IMG/VR virus record: IMGVR_UViG_3300022591_000004
Location: 1-64,000 of that record
From: a virus
Reading direction: 5' to 3' (one strand)
DNA: 64,000 nucleotides
Part shown: positions 3,746 to 12,375 of the stretch, one piece after another
Layout: each line of letters starts with the position of its first letter
Numbering within the stretch: the stretch's first letter is position 1
Program-made: the position numbers and the translations under genes
The notes under the pieces: model-generated
Told to the model about the DNA's origin: nothing
Database searches by the model: none
The model's input: the letters and a program-made list of their open reading frames with translations, nothing else

Positions 3746-4007
3746 ACCTGCACAGTATCACAGGGCGCCGAATTTCATAAACTCGGCTACTACTTCTGCA
3801 CAATGAGCGATACCTGTTACTGACACCTGGCCTCAATCCTGAGAATTGCCTGAATTAACCCTGGGGGGTGTCTGTGTGTGTAGATAGCCTGTGGATAACT
3901 CGTTGTGGACAACACGGTGTGGATATGTCGGTGCTTGACACTTATTCAGCCTAGTATTACTGTGCTCTTAGTGGACAACACGGTTCACTAATTAGACGGG
4001 GGACACA
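3746..4007. promoter_or_regulatory. Divergent promoter region with three 14 bp-spaced DnaA-like boxes
   Basis: Gap between divergent operons. Boxes TGTGGATAA (3890), TGTGGACAA (3904) and TGTGGATAT (3918) begin exactly 14 bp apart. The 14-mer GTGGACAACACGGT occurs at 3905-3918 and again at 3971-3984, the second copy at the predicted start point of the rightward transcript. A CTGAGAATT element (3838) shared with later gaps is present, but the long inverted-repeat element is not. Confidence 0.65.
3935..3963 (+). promoter_or_regulatory. Promoter P1 (TTGACA-N17-TACTGT)
   Basis: TTGACA at 3935-3940 and TACTGT at 3958-3963 match the sigma70-like pattern repeated before the other plus-strand operons. 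It drives the 4008-4959 gene set. Confidence 0.6.
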
Positions 4008-4959: not shown

Positions 4960-4978
4960 CCCCCGCTAAAACGACAAG

Positions 4979-5012
4979 CCCGAGAGCCGTTCCTCTCGGG
5001 TTTTGTTGTTTC
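4979..5012 (+). terminator. Rho-independent terminator of the P1 operon
   Basis: Stem CCCGAGAG / CTCTCGGG with a six-base loop, followed by TTTTGTTGTTTCTT. Confidence 0.85.
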
Positions 5013-5046: not shown

Positions 5047-5127
5047 GTTTGTGTTGGTGGTTGATATGTGTGGTGTATGTGCCTATGCCAGCCAGCGGCT
5101 TGTCTCGCTACGCTCGCCAACACAAAC
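5047..5127. repeat. Inverted-repeat element, copy 1 (81 bp)
   Basis: Left arm GTTTGTGTTGG at 5047-5057 and right arm CCAACACAAAC at 5117-5127 are perfect 11 bp complements. The interior holds TTGATA at 5061, ATGCCAGCCA near the middle and CTCGCTACGCTCG next to the right arm. The outer flanks (GCGCAAAA before, ATTCGG...CGGACATTTC after) recur in the other copies. Confidence 0.8.
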
Positions 5128-5153
5128 ATTCGGGCAATTCGGACATTTCAGGC

Positions 5154-5190
5154 TGTGGATAAGTCGCTGTGTATAACTAGCTGTGGAGAG
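5154..5190 (+). promoter_or_regulatory. DnaA-box-like array (14 bp spacing)
   Basis: TGTGGATAA (5154), TGTGTATAA (5168) and the degenerate TGTGGAGAG (5182) start exactly 14 bp apart. The first two fit TTATNCACA on the opposite strand. Confidence 0.65.
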
Positions 5191-5199
5191 AGAAGGTAC

Positions 5200-5227
5200 T
5201 TGCATTCTCTACTAATGAGAGTAATGT
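5200..5227 (+). promoter_or_regulatory. Promoter P2 (TTGCAT-N16-TAATGT)
   Basis: Spacing and position after the box array match promoters P3 and P4. It drives the DUF932 gene. The 4960-5274 gap otherwise contains the terminator, the inverted-repeat element and the boxes. Confidence 0.6.
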
Positions 5228-5274
5228 TCCTCTTGTCGCTAAACGGCGAATTTTAATACAGAAAGGCAAGGCTC

Positions 5275-6267
5275 ATGGCTCACGATTTAGAACAGGGTAA
5301 CGGTCAGACCGCATTTGCACTACGCGGAGAACCTGCATGGCACAATCTAGGAACCGTATTCGACAAGGATGCGGACATCACAACGAAGCAAATGTTAGAC
5401 CTCGCACATCTCTCCAATTGGAATGTTCGTCTAGAGCCCGTTTCCTATCCTGAGGGCTACACCACTGTCAAGGACGCTTATTCGGTTGTCCGTAATCACC
5501 CATTCAACGGCAATCCCGATGTTCTGTCGGTCGTAGGCGAGCGCTACAAGGTTGTCCAAAATGAGGAACTCTTCTCATTCGGTGACGGCATGCTAGACGG
5601 TGGCGGGGCATGGGAATCGGCGGGTTCTATCAAGGACGGTCGTGTCGTGTTCGGCTCAATCGTTATTCCGCGCGAATTTATCCTCGACCCTAGCGGAATT
5701 GCCGATAAGACAGTTTCCTATCTGCTTGTCCATACATCACATGACGGCTCGACCGCTCTACAGGCGAATGTAACGCCAATTCGCGTGGTCTGCCAGAATA
5801 CCCTCAATATCGCGCTAGGCTCTAGCAAGCAATCTTTCAAGGTTCGCCACACTCAGACAATCGGCGGACGCATGGAAGAGGCACGTCGTGTACTAGGCTT
5901 AACATTCTCCTACATGGACGATTTCCAGAAGCTGGCGCAAAATCTATTCGAGAGCGAGATTACTAATGCCCAATTCGACAAGCTTGTTGCAGGGCTCTAT
6001 CCAAAGCCTGATGAAGCTAGCAAAATGGCAACCACTAAGTACACCGACAAGCTCGACACCATCCACAATCTCTATAAAGTTGCAGCAACGCAAGACGGAA
6101 TTCGTGGCACGAAATGGGGAGCGCTCAACGCGCTCACAGAACGAGTTGATTATTTCCGTACAAGCCGAACAGGAGACAATAAGTCTCTCATGGCTTCTGC
6201 CAGCGGATTCGACGTCCAGACCAACGCTGAAAAGAACAAGATTCTAAAAGCGGTCATGGCACTGTAA
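5275..6267 (+). CDS. DUF932 (TIGR03299-like) phage/plasmid protein
   Basis: 330 aa. The N-terminus (MAHDLEQGNGQTAFALRGEPAWHNLG) and the centre (YLLVHTSHDGS...VTPIRVVCQNTL) are hallmarks of the DUF932 / phage-plasmid-like TIGR03299 family, found on phages, plasmids and in some hosts near replication genes. Full-length for the family, preceded by AAAGGCAAGG. It is alone between promoter P2 and a hairpin, so independently regulated. Biochemical role unknown; a DNA-repair or replication link is only proposed in the literature for relatives. Confidence 0.9.
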   Translation: MAHDLEQGNGQTAFALRGEPAWHNLGTVFDKDADITTKQMLDLAHLSNWNVRLEPVSYPEGYTTVKDAYSVVRNHPFNGNPDVLSVVGERYKVVQNEELFSFGDGMLDGGGAWESAGSIKDGRVVFGSIVIPREFILDPSGIADKTVSYLLVHTSHDGSTALQANVTPIRVVCQNTLNIALGSSKQSFKVRHTQTIGGRMEEARRVLGLTFSYMDDFQKLAQNLFESEITNAQFDKLVAGLYPKPDEASKMATTKYTDKLDTIHNLYKVAATQDGIRGTKWGALNALTERVDYFRTSRTGDNKSLMASASGFDVQTNAEKNKILKAVMAL

Positions 6268-6278
6268 CAAGATAAGTA

Positions 6279-6302
6279 GAGGGGCGGGGAAACCCGCCTC
6301 TC
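6279..6302 (+). terminator. GAAA-loop hairpin after the DUF932 gene
   Basis: GAGGGGCGGG / CCCGCCTCTC pairs fully (one G-U) around GAAA. No T-run follows, so it may stabilise the 3' end rather than terminate by itself. Confidence 0.55.
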
Positions 6303-6340
6303 ACCTAATTCTCAGACACGCCCGAGCGCGTTGCAGAAAA

Positions 6341-6420
6341 GTTTGTGTTGGGTGGCTGGGTGGGGTGGTGGTTGTTTCCTTTAATACTTTCGTAGCTCGC
6401 TTACTCGCTTCGACACAAAC
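6341..6420. repeat. Inverted-repeat element, copy 2 (80 bp)
   Basis: Left arm GTTTGTGTTGG (6341-6351) and right arm CGACACAAAC (6411-6420). The interior is G-rich on the left, with CTCGCTTACTCGC beside the right arm as in copy 1, so it has the same orientation as copy 1. Followed by ATTCGCAAAACGGACATTTC. Confidence 0.75.
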
Positions 6421-6444
6421 ATTCGCAAAACGGACATTTCGGGC

Positions 6445-6478
6445 TGTGGATAACCTGGTGTGGATAAAGATATACACA
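6445..6478 (+). promoter_or_regulatory. DnaA-box-like array
   Basis: TGTGGATAA at 6445 and 6459 (14 bp apart) and an opposed ATATACACA at 6470. Confidence 0.65.
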
Positions 6479-6490
6479 GGGCGAGAGTTA

Positions 6491-6518
6491 TTGACTTCTA
6501 CGATAACAAGAGTATTGT
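6491..6518 (+). promoter_or_regulatory. Promoter P3 (TTGACT-N16-TATTGT)
   Basis: Followed by a leader CTCTGTAAGGCAAATAAC almost identical to the leader after P4, including a second purine-rich GAAGGAGAG ribosome site. Confidence 0.65.
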
Positions 6519-6556
6519 CCTCTCTGTAAGGCAAATAACTACTACAGAAGGAGAGA

Positions 6557-6724
6557 ATGATGATTCAGTCACCATTCACGTCACAGGAAGTCCGTAAGCT
6601 GTTCGTCCTCGTCTGCGCTTCACCAGATATTGAGATGAAGGAAGCCATCGAGCTTCTCAACAAGTTGGATTCTTTGCATATCGCCACCAAGGGCGTCGAA
6701 TATTATGAAAGTCAGGGGGTGTGA
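6557..6724 (+). CDS. Hypothetical protein, 55 aa
   Basis: Tandem ATG starts after GAAGGAGAG. MIQSPFTSQEVRKLFVLV... is largely helical with a C-terminal charged strand. Not recognised. First gene after P3. Confidence 0.6.
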   Translation: MMIQSPFTSQEVRKLFVLVCASPDIEMKEAIELLNKLDSLHIATKGVEYYESQGV

Positions 6725-6725
6725 G

Positions 6726-7007
6726 GTGAAAACACTGGCGGATTTTAAGCGCGCACTTACTGTAGGCACTGAAGTAGAACTACTTAGCTTAGCAAAGAAC
6801 GTCAAGGGTGGGCGCTTGCAGGTTGGTATGGTGCGCCGAGTCACCAAGGCAGATACCACTGGCGTGTACTTGCAAACCGAAGGACTCGAAGGTCGAGGTT
6901 CATTCTTAGGTTGGGATAAGGCTAAAGATTGGGTGTTTGACGGCGATAGGGCTATTAATATCGTCTGGGGCTATTCATACCGAGTATTGAATAAAGAGGG
7001 CAGCTAA
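6726..7007 (+). CDS. Hypothetical beta-rich protein, 93 aa
   Basis: GTG start (VKTLADFKRALTVGTEVELL) two bases after the preceding stop and behind AGGGGG; the slightly longer ATG frame overlaps the upstream gene and is less likely. Its barrel-like pattern (GTEVELL...GRLQVGMVRRVTKA) and the WDKAKDWVF segment suggest a small beta protein. Not assigned. Confidence 0.65.
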   Translation: MKTLADFKRALTVGTEVELLSLAKNVKGGRLQVGMVRRVTKADTTGVYLQTEGLEGRGSFLGWDKAKDWVFDGDRAINIVWGYSYRVLNKEGS

Positions 7008-7021
7008 TACTTAGCTAAGTT

Positions 7022-7039
7022 GAGGGGCGAAAGCCCCTC
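7022..7039 (+). terminator. GAAA-loop hairpin after the P3 operon
   Basis: GAGGGGC-GAAA-GCCCCTC, perfect 7 bp. No T-run. Followed by AATTCTCAG, as after the 6279 hairpin, so the two 3' ends share a design. Confidence 0.6.
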
Positions 7040-7058
7040 AGCCAATTCTCAGGAAAAT

Positions 7059-7138
7059 GTTTGTGTTGACCGAGCGAGCAGCGAGGGCAATCAGTGGCTG
7101 GCATGGGCATATACCTGCATATATCAACCGACACAAAC
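7059..7138. repeat. Inverted-repeat element, copy 3 (80 bp), interior inverted
   Basis: Left arm GTTTGTGTTG (7059-7068) and right arm CGACACAAAC (7129-7138). Read on the plus strand the interior begins CGAGCGAGCAGCGAG and ends TATATCAAC; its reverse complement (GTTGATATAT...CATGCCAGCCA...CTCGCTGCTCGCTCG) aligns along its length with the interior of copy 1. So the middle lies in the opposite orientation although the outer flanks keep theirs. Confidence 0.75.
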
Positions 7139-7165
7139 AATTCGGACATTTCAGACAAATTGGGC

Positions 7166-7199
7166 TGTGGATAACTCGTTGGGGATAAAGTTATACACA
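7166..7199 (+). promoter_or_regulatory. DnaA-box-like array
   Basis: TGTGGATAA (7166) and TGGGGATAA (7180), 14 bp apart, then an opposed perfect TTATACACA at 7191. Confidence 0.65.
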
Positions 7200-7211
7200 A
7201 GGGGAGAGTAT

Positions 7212-7239
7212 TTGACATATCTATAGAAAGCGATAGTCT
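7212..7239 (+). promoter_or_regulatory. Promoter P4 (TTGACA-N16-TAGTCT)
   Basis: The -35 hexamer is consensus. The leader CTCTTTGTAAGGCAAACAACCAC matches that of P3. It drives 7287-8018. Confidence 0.65.
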
Positions 7240-7286
7240 TCTCTTTGTAAGGCAAACAACCACTCTAGAAAGAGAGTAAAGGCAAA

Positions 7287-7535
7287 ATGGCAAAACTTCT
7301 ACCACGCTTTGAGGTAAAGGTTACCGCAGAGTATCACTACGAGTCCGAGGACTTTGATACCGAAGGCAACCTTACCCGCGAAACTGTCGAGAATGACGCA
7401 AGTATCGCTTTCTACGACAATGTTAATAATGCCGAAATCTACTCAACCGAGATTACCAAGTCTTGGTTCGAGTGCGAGGATTGCGGCGAAGATGATGTCG
7501 AAGAAGACCACGAGTGCGAAAACGAGGCTGAGTAA
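7287..7535 (+). CDS. Acidic hypothetical protein with a CxxC-type tail
   Basis: 82 aa, strongly acidic. A beta-like first part (FEVKVTAEYHYESEDFD) is followed by a C-terminal WFECEDCGEDD...HEC that could bind zinc through C-x2-C plus HxC. The stop overlaps the next start. Not recognised. Confidence 0.65.
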   Translation: MAKLLPRFEVKVTAEYHYESEDFDTEGNLTRETVENDASIAFYDNVNNAEIYSTEITKSWFECEDCGEDDVEEDHECENEAE

Positions 7536-7768
7536 TGACACGCAAGGACTACCAGCTTATTGCTAAGACTATTTCAGACTTCCGCTACGAGGGTACGGAG
7601 TTCCGTGACCCTGTAATGATTGCCCTGATTGACCGTCTTGGGGCGCGTATTTGTGAGGCGTTGGAAAACGAAAATCCGCGCTTTAACGCCGATAAATTTC
7701 TAGAGGCTATGGAATACGGAAAACGCCCTACCACCGATGAAATCGTCATGCGAGCGTGGGGGTCGTAA
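7535..7768 (+). CDS. Conserved small phage protein (MTRKDYQLIA family)
   Basis: 77 aa. MTRKDYQLIAKTI...CEALENENPRFNADKFLEAM is a pattern I recall from many small phage proteins of unrelated hosts; the conserved ENPRF(N/D) is present. Entirely helical. Function unknown. The start overlaps the previous stop (TAATG). Confidence 0.75.
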   Translation: MTRKDYQLIAKTISDFRYEGTEFRDPVMIALIDRLGARICEALENENPRFNADKFLEAMEYGKRPTTDEIVMRAWGS

Positions 7769-7821
7769 TGAAAACCACCGAAGACTACTACAAGGCTTAT
7801 TACAAGGGAGAAATAGCGTGA
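7768..7821 (+). CDS. Micropeptide, 17 aa
   Basis: MKTTEDYYKAYYKGEIA begins in TAATG with the preceding stop and ends in GTGA with the next start. Such exact bridging suggests it is translated, possibly only to carry ribosomes to the next gene. Confidence 0.4.
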   Translation: MKTTEDYYKAYYKGEIA

Positions 7822-8018
7822 AAAAAGGCATTAAAGAAGTCCTTCAGATTGCTCTAGAAGAAGCTGACGACTATAGCTACGTCCTAACACAGGAACAAGC
7901 CGCAGAACATCGGGGCGCAAAATACGCTCTATACGAGGTTTATCAGTATCTCTTTGATGAGTCATACCAGACCGAGCGTGACAAGCGCCTAGAGGCTAAA
8001 CAGAGTTCTCCCGCGTAA
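7818..8018 (+). CDS. Hypothetical helical protein, 66 aa
   Basis: GTG start behind AAGGGAG; the ATG of the longer frame lies in the upstream gene and is rejected. KKGIKEVLQIALEEADD...RDKRLEAKQ is helical and charged. Last gene of the P4 operon. Not recognised. Confidence 0.6.
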   Translation: MKKGIKEVLQIALEEADDYSYVLTQEQAAEHRGAKYALYEVYQYLFDESYQTERDKRLEAKQSSPA

Positions 8019-8054
8019 GTTATTTGCCTTTCTGACGCGGTTGAGATGGGACAT

Positions 8055-8090
8055 AGAGCGGAGACTACCCTTCGCTCTTTGTTCATTTTA
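8055..8090 (+). terminator. Terminator of the P4 operon
   Basis: AGAGCG / CGCTCT stem with a 12-base loop followed by TTGTTCATTTT. Confidence 0.6.
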
Positions 8091-8118
8091 GTAGAAAATT
8101 CGCGCCTAAGCGCCAAAA

Positions 8119-8218
8119 GTTTGTGTTGGTCACTCCTTGATATGGTCATATATGTGCATAATGTGCTGTGCTGGCTATCACACGTGACAAAACCCACCCA
8201 CCCGCTACCAACACAAAC
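8119..8218. repeat. Inverted-repeat element, copy 4 (100 bp)
   Basis: Arms GTTTGTGTTGG(T) at 8119-8130 and (A)CCAACACAAAC at 8207-8218 are perfect over 12 bp. The interior starts with CTTGATATGGTCATATATGTG and has GTGCTGGCT in the middle, so it lies in the copy 1 orientation but is about 20 bp longer. Inside is TTGATA (8137) N16 TAATGT (8159), which fits the promoter pattern of this region. Confidence 0.75.
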
Positions 8219-8257: not shown

Positions 8258-8280
8258 TTATCCACAGAGAGTTATCCACA
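8258..8280 (-). promoter_or_regulatory. Pair of perfect DnaA boxes
   Basis: TTATCCACA at 8258 and 8272, again 14 bp apart but in the opposite orientation to the other arrays. Confidence 0.7.
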
Positions 8281-8335: not shown

Positions 8336-8351
8336 TGTTTCACGTGAAACG
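8336..8351. promoter_or_regulatory. parS-like ParB binding site
   Basis: TGTTTCACGTGAAACG differs from the bacterial chromosomal parS consensus TGTTTCACGTGAAACA only at the last base, and its core GTTTCACGTGAAAC is a perfect 14 bp palindrome. ParB (Spo0J) proteins of actinobacteria and firmicutes bind this sequence. Only one copy was found in the window. Confidence 0.85.
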
Positions 8352-8555: not shown

Positions 8556-8592
8556 TGTGGATAACTGCTTGTGGATAAACACCTGTGGATAA
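8556..8592 (+). promoter_or_regulatory. Three perfect DnaA-like boxes at 14 bp spacing
   Basis: TGTGGATAA at 8556, 8570 and 8584, the most regular array in the window. An A/T-rich ACTATTTATTTATC follows. Confidence 0.75.
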
Positions 8593-8729: not shown

Positions 8730-9023
8730 ATGAACCTCACACAAAAGCAAAATGTCGCTAAAAGCCTGAAAAACGCTAAGGGTATCGCGTGGGATACCTG
8801 CCATAAGATTTATATTCTTATGGACGATAATCAAATGGAACTCATGCGCGGTTATGGCTATGACCCATTGGTTAGCTCAGTAGATACTACCCCTGACGAG
8901 ATGTTGGCTCTTATCGAGGATTGGTTCGACAATTCGTGCGACCTACGTTTCATTGACTCTGTAACTACTGACACCGAGAATCCTAACGCGGGATTTCTTA
9001 CTGTTGTAGGGCAGGATTTCTAA
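8730..9023 (+). CDS. Conserved small phage protein, 97 aa
   Basis: MNLTQKQNVAKSLKNAKGIAWD then CHKIYILMDDNQMELMRGYGYD: a helix followed by a basic strand-turn, then an acidic helix. I associate the (GI.WD.CHKIY) pattern with conserved proteins of unknown function in actinobacterial phages. AAAGG precedes the ATG; first gene after P5. Confidence 0.65.
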   Translation: MNLTQKQNVAKSLKNAKGIAWDTCHKIYILMDDNQMELMRGYGYDPLVSSVDTTPDEMLALIEDWFDNSCDLRFIDSVTTDTENPNAGFLTVVGQDF

Positions 9024-9355
9024 TGAGCTATATAAAGAGCCTATTAGAGGATATTAACGCCGAGTGCGAGAACGAAAATATCCCTGTCAAGGCGTTTATT
9101 GCTTATCTAGATAATGACCATATCCCGCTAGGGGAGTGGCAAGACCATATTCCTAACTTCCATGAGGCTTACGTAGGTAAGTACGATTCGGTCGCGGATT
9201 TTGCTTCTGATATGGCTGAGCGCTTGGGCGTATTTACTGAGGCTAGTAGTTATGACTCTTTCTTGGTTCGATACTTTGATTTCGAGGCTTGGGGGCGCGA
9301 TTTATTACAGGGTGATTACTGGGAGATTGACGGTTACTACTTTGGGAGTTACTAA
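9023..9355 (+). CDS. ArdA-like antirestriction protein (short form)
   Basis: 110 aa. EAYVGKYDSVADFASDMAE, then RYFDFEAWGRDLLQGDYWEIDGYYFGSY, matches the second half of ArdA (Y-G-Y-D-S...DFA...YFDxExxxRDLxxxDY). ArdA proteins mimic B-form DNA and block type I restriction enzymes; strong acidity fits. Classical ArdA is about 165 aa with an extra N-terminal domain, so this is a shortened relative. Overlaps the previous stop (TAATG). Confidence 0.75.
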   Translation: MSYIKSLLEDINAECENENIPVKAFIAYLDNDHIPLGEWQDHIPNFHEAYVGKYDSVADFASDMAERLGVFTEASSYDSFLVRYFDFEAWGRDLLQGDYWEIDGYYFGSY

Positions 9356-10984: not shown

Positions 10985-11059
10985 ATGAATAACGACGAAA
11001 ATGGTCTAAACATATCTCAGTTTAATATCATAGATATAAAAGTGGAAGCAGGAGAATAA
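10985..11059 (+). CDS. Micropeptide, 24 aa
   Basis: MNNDENGLNISQFNIIDIK... with AAGGAG upstream of the ATG and a TAATG overlap with the HTH gene. Could be a leader peptide for the regulator. Confidence 0.45.
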   Translation: MNNDENGLNISQFNIIDIKVEAGE

Positions 11060-11223: not shown

Positions 11224-11480
11224 ACTCAACACAAACCACGCCGATTGGCGCGACAGTAATGATTCGCTGGAAGGATATGCCTGAGGAGTTACAGTTTCAG
11301 GAATATATCTCTTTTGGGGAGTACGACGAAGATAGCGAGCAAGATGGTTTTGGCGTTGATGATTTCTTTATCTTCAGCTATGTAGATAGCCTAGAGGAGT
11401 TGCAACGCATGGAAGGAAAGCTAGATAATCTTAATTTTGATTGGTTACTAACAGAAATCGGAGAAGTGCATTATGCGTAA
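11220..11480 (+). CDS. Acidic hypothetical protein, 86 aa
   Basis: GTG start in the HTH gene's stop (GTGA). Strongly acidic centre (SFGEYDEDSEQDGFGVDD), a composition seen in DNA mimics, but no family match. Its end overlaps the protease start by eight bases. Confidence 0.6.
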   Translation: MNSTQTTPIGATVMIRWKDMPEELQFQEYISFGEYDEDSEQDGFGVDDFFIFSYVDSLEELQRMEGKLDNLNFDWLLTEIGEVHYA

Positions 11481-12375
11481 GTTATTACTAGCCTTAATAG
11501 TGGGTGCGACCCTTGTCTCACCTGCCTATGCTGGTACACCAACGACACCTACGGTTGTCCTTGTGGATAGCGGAGTTAATGACTCGTTGTTTAGCGCGAA
11601 TATCGTTTATGAAGCGTGTTTTATTGAGAATACCACCTGCGCTAACGGCAAAAATTCTATGGAAGGCGTGGGGTCTGCTCAGCAAGTTACCACATCTACT
11701 AATGCTGAGGTTAATCACGGAGAAAATATGCTCTCTATCATGGTTAAAGTTAATCCTAGTATTAAAGTAATTCCTATAAAAATTGTGGGAGTTACGGCGT
11801 TAGGGAATCCCTATCTGTATTCTTTAGCCTCTGTTAAATCCTCGTTGGATTGGGTCGTGGCTAATCAAGCTAAGTTTAATATTGGAGTAGTTAATATCTC
11901 TCAAGGCGCGATATTCGCTGGGTGTGCCGTCCCTGCTGGATTACAGCAAGATATTAACATCTTACAATCAGAGAACGTTCAGGTCGTCGCCGCAACAGGT
12001 AACACCAGTAACAGAGCTCAAATGTTTGCACCTGCCTGCTTGCCTAACGTCATCTCAGTAGGAGCAACGGATAATCCGTGGGGTGGTATGCAACCTTACG
12101 CATGGGACTCAAAAGCTAATCCTAGTATTGGTCTATACAGCAACGGAAACAGTTCTACAACCCTTTACTCGAATGCTCGATACTTTGTTACTCAGCTTAA
12201 TGGAGTGGTGAAGTTTATGGCTGGCACGTCCAACGCCACAGCCGCAGTATCAGCATGGCTTAGCCTCAATAGAGGGGCAAATTGGACAACAACATACAAT
12301 AATCTGATAACATCAGCCTCGGGAACAGCAACCAACCAATGGCTTACGGGTCACTACCTATTCATTAACTCATAA
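11473..12375 (+). CDS. Secreted subtilisin-like (S8) serine protease
   Basis: 300 aa. A signal peptide (MRKLLLALIVGATLVSPAYA, cleavage after about residue 20) precedes a compact subtilase core: D32 in VLVDSG, H82 in NHGENM, the oxyanion Asn N177 in VVAATGN, NVISVGATD, and S253 in GTSNATAA. All catalytic residues are present; the usual HGT reads HGE. The propeptide is absent or very short. Predicted to be exported and to cut proteins outside the membrane. Unusual in a phage early operon; lysis aid, surface-protein removal or anti-competitor roles are possible. Confidence 0.85.
   Translation: MRKLLLALIVGATLVSPAYAGTPTTPTVVLVDSGVNDSLFSANIVYEACFIENTTCANGKNSMEGVGSAQQVTTSTNAEVNHGENMLSIMVKVNPSIKVIPIKIVGVTALGNPYLYSLASVKSSLDWVVANQAKFNIGVVNISQGAIFAGCAVPAGLQQDINILQSENVQVVAATGNTSNRAQMFAPACLPNVISVGATDNPWGGMQPYAWDSKANPSIGLYSNGNSSTTLYSNARYFVTQLNGVVKFMAGTSNATAAVSAWLSLNRGANWTTTYNNLITSASGTATNQWLTGHYLFINS

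Follow-up and report, generated by a model that had tools for sequence, protein, structure and literature searches.

We analysed the first 64,000 bases (the window) of the 95,668-base IMG/VR virus record IMGVR_UViG_3300022591_000004, in which four elements with inverted ends lie between the early operons of a phage. Elements 1 (5047–5127, 81 bp) and 4 (8119–8218, 100 bp) both have the ends GTTTGTGTTGG/CCAACACAAAC. Element 2 (6341–6420, 80 bp) has the ends GTTTGTGTTGG/TCGACACAAAC and a G/T-rich left half, and element 3 (7059–7138, 80 bp) has the ends GTTTGTGTTGA/CCGACACAAAC. All four are present where the original prediction placed them. The near-identity of ends that it described holds for elements 1 and 4 but is imperfect at the right end of element 2 and at both ends of element 3, which deviate at positions 9–11, with position 9 tolerating T·G. 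With at most one mismatch, the end 11-mer occurs 12 times in the window (1.24 expected), a number that 0 of 100 shuffles reached. Pairs of ends spaced 45–165 bp apart occur four times in the window and not once in any of 20 Markov shuffles, and a search of the entire record for a fifth pair found none. Alignment scores identify the interior of element 3 as an inverted relative of that of element 1 (inverted 55, direct 18, shuffle maximum 26). Element 1 is identical throughout to the element at the orthologous place in the related locus L002.

The surroundings of the four elements are also alike. Each is preceded by a terminator-like hairpin, as had been predicted, but a clear T-rich tail is present only in the hairpins before element 1 (4976–5003, plus strand) and element 4 (8055–8078, plus strand), both identified by consensus match only. 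The predicted flank conservation is borne out: ...AAAA stands ahead of all four elements and CGGACATTTC behind three. Downstream of every element a box search recovered repeats resembling the DnaA box TTATCCACA, one mismatch being allowed in some, with starts exactly 14 bp apart. The pairs at 6445–6467 (minus strand; starts 6445/6459) and 8258–8280 (plus strand; 8258/8272) are exact, and those at 5154–5176 (5154/5168) and 7166–7188 (7166/7180), both on the minus strand, have one mismatch in the second box. Two triplets with the same spacing have no inverted-repeat element immediately ahead: one at 3890–3926 (starts 3890/3904/3918), and one of exact boxes on the minus strand at 8556–8592 (8556/8570/8584), before gene 8730. 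Candidate promoters on the plus strand were noted by eye at 5200–5227 (TTGCAT-16-TAATGT, before gene 5275) and 7212–7239 (TTGACA-16-TAGTCT). A third, at 6491–6518 (TTGACT-16-TATTGT), is a weak call: 8 such sites were found in the region against 6.2 expected.

Relatives were gathered in two ways: through the DUF932 gene at 5275–6267 (plus strand; Pfam PF06067, E 5e-54; phrog_1221) and through the end pair itself, which gave 30 stretches. All are metagenomic contigs, many of them fragments. Combining exact and tolerant searches with a general search for hairpins yielded 145 distinct elements of 56–143 bp (median 81), among which a few hairpins may be ordinary terminators. At least one element is found in 36 of the 80 DUF932 loci. 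The general hairpin search returned 175 hairpins in real loci (same-contig copies included) and, at equal threshold, 0 in a mono-shuffled control of 1.25 Mb. The usual order in the family is an upstream gene, a terminator-like hairpin, the element, an array of short boxes that are often DnaA-box-like, a promoter region and the next gene. A strong hairpin lies within 50 nt upstream of 113 of 128 elements, and a T-run is found at the junction of 43 (5% at random positions). A DnaA-box-like repeat follows within 35 bp in 47 of the 128, and the next start codon, located for 82, has a median distance of 124 bp downstream. Different short arrays, e.g. TTATTACGATTTGATAAC or GTTTACCT-N3-GTTCACCT (by eye), take the place of these boxes in other lineages. 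Hairpin elements are confined to one early region in the whole records G002, G003 and G005, and in the first two this region also holds nearly all exact boxes. The original prediction staked itself on conservation of ends and spacing in related genomes, and both are conserved. The recurrence of the layout in dozens of phages, the 14-bp-spaced boxes after each element and the inverted relationship of elements 3 and 1 go beyond what it had described.

Lineage-specific ends

Each phage lineage carries its own version of one 11–12 bp end motif at nearly all copies, with the family consensus TKKTTRNGYTGG (right-aligned). Relatives without GTTTGTGTTGG have hairpins with different ends in the equivalent place: TTGTTGAGTTGG in L004, L006 and L007, TTGTTACGTTGG in L010, GTTTGGGTTGG in L025, and TTGTTAGG/TTGTTGGG/TTGCTGGG-TTGG in L005, L008 and L013. 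The end GTTTGTGCTGG is found in some copies of L020, L021, L047 and L078. These motif classes, like the box arrays, were partly assigned by eye. The motif points inward in 113 classified palindromes and outward in 13, plus several seen by eye. Where both polarities occur together (L004, L005, L006, L007, L008, L025 and L039), outward palindromes lie to the left and inward ones to the right of the early region. Left and right motifs are not identical in L008 and L013 (TTGCTG vs TTGTTA/TTGTTG) and pair incompletely, so the ends appear to be kept as sequence and not as pairs. At the right end of several elements (e.g. L003:5805, L016:9780, L019:6884 and L047:3856) a local hairpin, TTGG...CCAA, competes with the outer end pairing.

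Hairpin stems and their reshaping

The end motif of most relatives forms the outermost portion of a 20–32 bp stem that pairs perfectly. Among 105 hairpins whose arms reach 18 bp or more, only 6 of the 2,564 stem pairs are not Watson–Crick and none is G·T or A·C, with a hairpin finder that penalises mismatches and does not forbid them. The spacers left unpaired inside these arms measure 12–51 bp. The arms of the window lineage are only ~8–14 bp long, so the family can do without a long stem. Beyond the end motif, the arms in L004, L005, L007, L008, L010 and L013 often contain two direct repeats of ~8 bp resembling TTGCCTAT. A perfect inverted repeat with 64 bp arms spans both box array and end motif at L006:389–528.

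Comparison of orthologous elements, which are non-independent samples, recovered 15 two-sided arm changes and 0 one-sided changes. L004:4559 and L007:4572 have corresponding flanks and matching arms, yet opposite spacer orientations. Spacer inversion is also seen between paralogues; otherwise orthologous spacers almost always share the same orientation. We left apparent inversions in L104 out of account, as the orientation of that locus had not been set by gene direction. When a polymerase switches templates at inverted repeats, homogenised arms and inverted spacers are the outcomes described (PMC8604942, PMC8794818). As two-sided changes and spacer inversions are what template switching produces, covariation alone is no proof of a selected RNA structure. 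We consider it probable that the elements are DNA hairpins evolving by template switching. The inverted copies of the motif would allow the DNA to fold into a hairpin during replication, and switching of the polymerase between templates would render the inner arms identical, occasionally flip the spacer and sometimes remove the element. Such reshaping of hairpins requires no recombinase.

The inverted spacers bear on the invertible cassette that the original prediction had listed first among its options, in which a recombinase flips the spacer and so alters expression of the neighbouring operon. Inversion of spacers is real, both in the orthologues L004/L007 and in paralogues, yet the shared orientation of nearly all other orthologous spacers speaks against a switch, and spacers of 12–51 bp between arms are short for site-specific inversion. 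No tyrosine recombinase (PF00589) and no serine recombinase or resolvase was found in 14 records, this one included, which may be incomplete. A programmed switch is unlikely, to the point that we give it hardly any weight.

A second option was a structured RNA: read-through from the upstream operon would place the elements as 3' hairpins that protect mRNA ends, serve as a processing site or act as a second-stage terminator. The elements do come after the upstream gene, and elements 1–3 of the window fold better as plus-strand than as minus-strand RNA; element 2 folds well only on the plus strand (z −4.3). Across 128 elements, folding favours the plus strand by 1.0 kcal/mol (p 0.036; related elements are non-independent), and in the spacers by about 1.0 kcal/mol (p 0.0002). 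However, the neighbouring terminators, a built-in positive control for the strand test, show a stronger bias (−1.8 kcal/mol, p 2e-7, GU 134 vs 67), and element 4 folds better on the minus strand. The elements have no Rfam match, either at the gathering threshold or at E≤1. We favour a DNA element because of the position beyond the terminator-like hairpin and before the promoter, the near-absence of wobble pairs in the stems and the tolerated mismatches between motif copies; a structured RNA is unlikely, though it is a serious rival and deserves more weight than a switch.

Elements are also gained and lost. L011 lacks the 109 bp element of L016, L018, L034 and L100 (107 bp in L102), and its flanks are joined as GCGCGGAAAT-G-CTGTGGCG with no target duplication at this empty site. 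Immediately before the counterpart of element 1, L002 contains an additional ~1 kb module that includes an element of its own. L078 has two elements with a gene between them where L049 has one, and L033 differs from L021 in a similar way. In these three pairs (window/L002, L078/L049 and L021/L033) the module differences are bounded by elements. The simplest cause of such gain and loss would be recombination between the repeated elements, moving gene modules in and out.

These observations accord in part with the non-autonomous mobile element of the original prediction, taken here as selfish palindromes resembling miniature inverted-repeat transposable elements or repetitive extragenic palindromes (REP), spread by a transposase acting in trans. 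There are several copies per genome with conserved ends, one site is cleanly empty, and related spacers occur inverted within one genome. On the other hand, the empty site has no target duplication, operon boundaries are the only places occupied, and the spacers are mostly unrelated from copy to copy. The 14 records that yielded no tyrosine or serine recombinase also contain no Y1 transposase (PF01797), although a host enzyme is possible and other transposase families were not searched. The exact end pair occurs in one of 84,980 cellular genomes, as a hairpin (GTTTGTGTTGGGATGGGGGGCC, L123:303–373) in the chromosome of an Acetobacteraceae metagenome-assembled genome with the same ends as the elements. 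A single match in the whole collection is the level expected by chance for hairpins with arbitrary arms; the match is probably fortuitous, and we rejected a cellular origin. We find the mobile palindrome improbable, more so than the structured RNA.

Alternatively, the elements may serve recombination or replication directly, as hot spots of module exchange or as sites of single-strand initiation or fork handling that work with the DnaA-box-like arrays. Consistent with this, three pairs of relatives have module break points at or within elements, and in G002 and G003 the box arrays accompany the elements and are nearly absent elsewhere. Exchange at short shared repeats is nevertheless expected without any dedicated function, the DnaA-like boxes are swapped for other arrays in other lineages, and one element per operon boundary suits transcription units better. 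A dedicated role of this kind is somewhat less doubtful than a mobile palindrome and falls short of the structured RNA.

A proposed role in early operon control

The elements share their ends, stand one to an operon boundary and have lineage-specific ends; because of this we propose, tentatively and with slightly less than even confidence, that they are paired operator-like (or insulator) sites for early operons, recognised by a lineage-specific phage factor. Paired inverted copies of the 11–12 bp motif, ~60–140 bp apart in the stretch that separates an early operon's terminator from the promoter of the following operon, would be bound at both ends by a phage-encoded factor whose specificity varies by lineage, and the early operons would thereby be co-regulated or insulated from one another. 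Binding of a protein by the ends and its effect on transcription are predictions from the arrangement of the sequence.

Several observations weigh against this proposal. Arms of 20–32 bp with recurring ~8 bp repeats are not needed by pure operator sites, the palindromes exist in two polarities with the motif pointing in or out, and L011 manages without one element. The promoter calls in the window scarcely exceed chance, and the spacing of the ends displays no clear helical phasing: a nominal p of 0.0006 obtained when relatives were counted rose to 0.09 (10.5 bp) after similar elements were collapsed. The cognate protein was not found; the HTH_17 gene at 11059 was considered and rejected, being strong only in this phage and not common to the other element-bearing records. 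It is also conceivable, though we think it unlikely, that the elements form an unnamed class of their own, with a hairpin at every early operon boundary, ends serving as a lineage 'self' mark for a phage factor and polarities marking two sets of operons.

In all, we appear to be dealing with a new family of paired control sites, whose members are also subject to flipping and erosion and provide break points where modules are swapped. Although phages of uncultivated freshwater bacteria are abundant, next to nothing is known about how they control their genes; a boundary element with lineage-specific ends in dozens of phages marks early transcription units directly in the sequence, and the ends provide a handle for finding the cognate factor. 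The ~145 natural variants lend themselves to the study of how replication reshapes DNA hairpins. They also call for caution: template switching can give rise to perfect covariation, which is commonly read as proof that an RNA structure is under selection.

The record has a GC content of 46%, and single-protein comparison places its nearest cultivated relatives among Streptomyces phages: the DUF932 protein is up to 56% identical to those of Stanwilliamsviridae-type phages, and the DNA polymerase ~39% identical to those of phages such as Alone3 and BRock. The host would be an uncultivated freshwater actinobacterium. No such elements are present in nine DUF932 regions taken from isolates or in two large parts of Streptomyces phage BRock. 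Several other features of the window were noted. The sequence TGTTTCACGTGAAACG at 8336–8351 is parS-like, one base off the canonical parS site, and G003 has a parS-like core at 85710, ~6 bp from an element. No ParB_N protein was found in this record or in G003, nor any of the ParB family in the 14 records, and the site at 8336–8351 may recruit a host ParB. The early region also encodes an ArdA-like antirestriction protein (9023–9355; Pfam E 8e-10), which was rejected as a common feature, being present in 2 of 14 records, and a subtilase-family protein with an apparent signal peptide (11473–12375).

Comparison with known systems

The original prediction could name no matching class, and this remains so: known repeat families fail on the features tested, and our searches of the freshwater actinophage literature turned up no account of the elements. 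The attC sites of integrons have a similar length range, conserved ends (GTTRRRY and RYYYAAC), a variable palindromic interior and adjoining gene modules. The element ends GTTTGTG/CACAAAC, with T at position 4, do not fit these cores, the element stems are perfect, and no IntI-type tyrosine recombinase was found in the 14 records. The Y1 transposase characteristic of REP/RAYT systems is likewise missing from these records.

Among actinophage repeats, the 17 bp dyad repeats of cluster O mycobacteriophages (PMC4351075) resemble the elements in being symmetric repeated sites, partly intergenic, with deletions between copies. They differ in being shorter and in having the form TGTTCGG-3-CCGAACA, over 30 copies, one third of them inside genes, and no variable-stem hairpin. 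The nearest are the extended start-associated sequences (ESAS) of cluster K mycobacteriophages (PMC3203893), whose function is unknown: these too are within-genome inverted repeats with a variable spacer, limited to the non-structural genes, with a consensus that differs between subclusters. ESAS have imperfect 17 bp arms with spacers of mostly 4–13 bp, whereas the elements have longer spacers and perfect stems of up to 32 bp. ESAS lie at translation starts beside a 13 bp start-associated sequence (SAS), whereas the next start codon is found at a median distance of 124 bp downstream of the elements, which have neither this adjacency nor arms and spacers of the ESAS kind.

Inverted repeats shaped by template switching, in yeast coding DNA (PMC8604942) and in RNA genes (PMC8794818), share with the elements arm homogenisation, two-sided changes and spacer inversion; both two-sided arm changes and spacer inversion between relatives were observed here. 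Template switching is, however, a mutational process and not a family of elements, and it leaves the shared ends and the placement of one element per operon unexplained. The proposed control function has its counterpart in SPBRE, a single 15 bp motif of Bacillus phage SP-beta. The elements consist instead of two inverted motifs 60–140 bp apart in a hairpin after a terminator; SPBRE is bound by the regulator MrpR, whereas for the elements a regulator is only proposed and no tyrosine-recombinase gene was found in the 14 records. In both cases a conserved motif is repeated at several promoter regions of one phage, as expected of an SPBRE-like operator, and in both it was first found by sequence alone: 24 years after the discovery of SPBRE, the master repressor MrpR was shown to bind it (PMC10516654).

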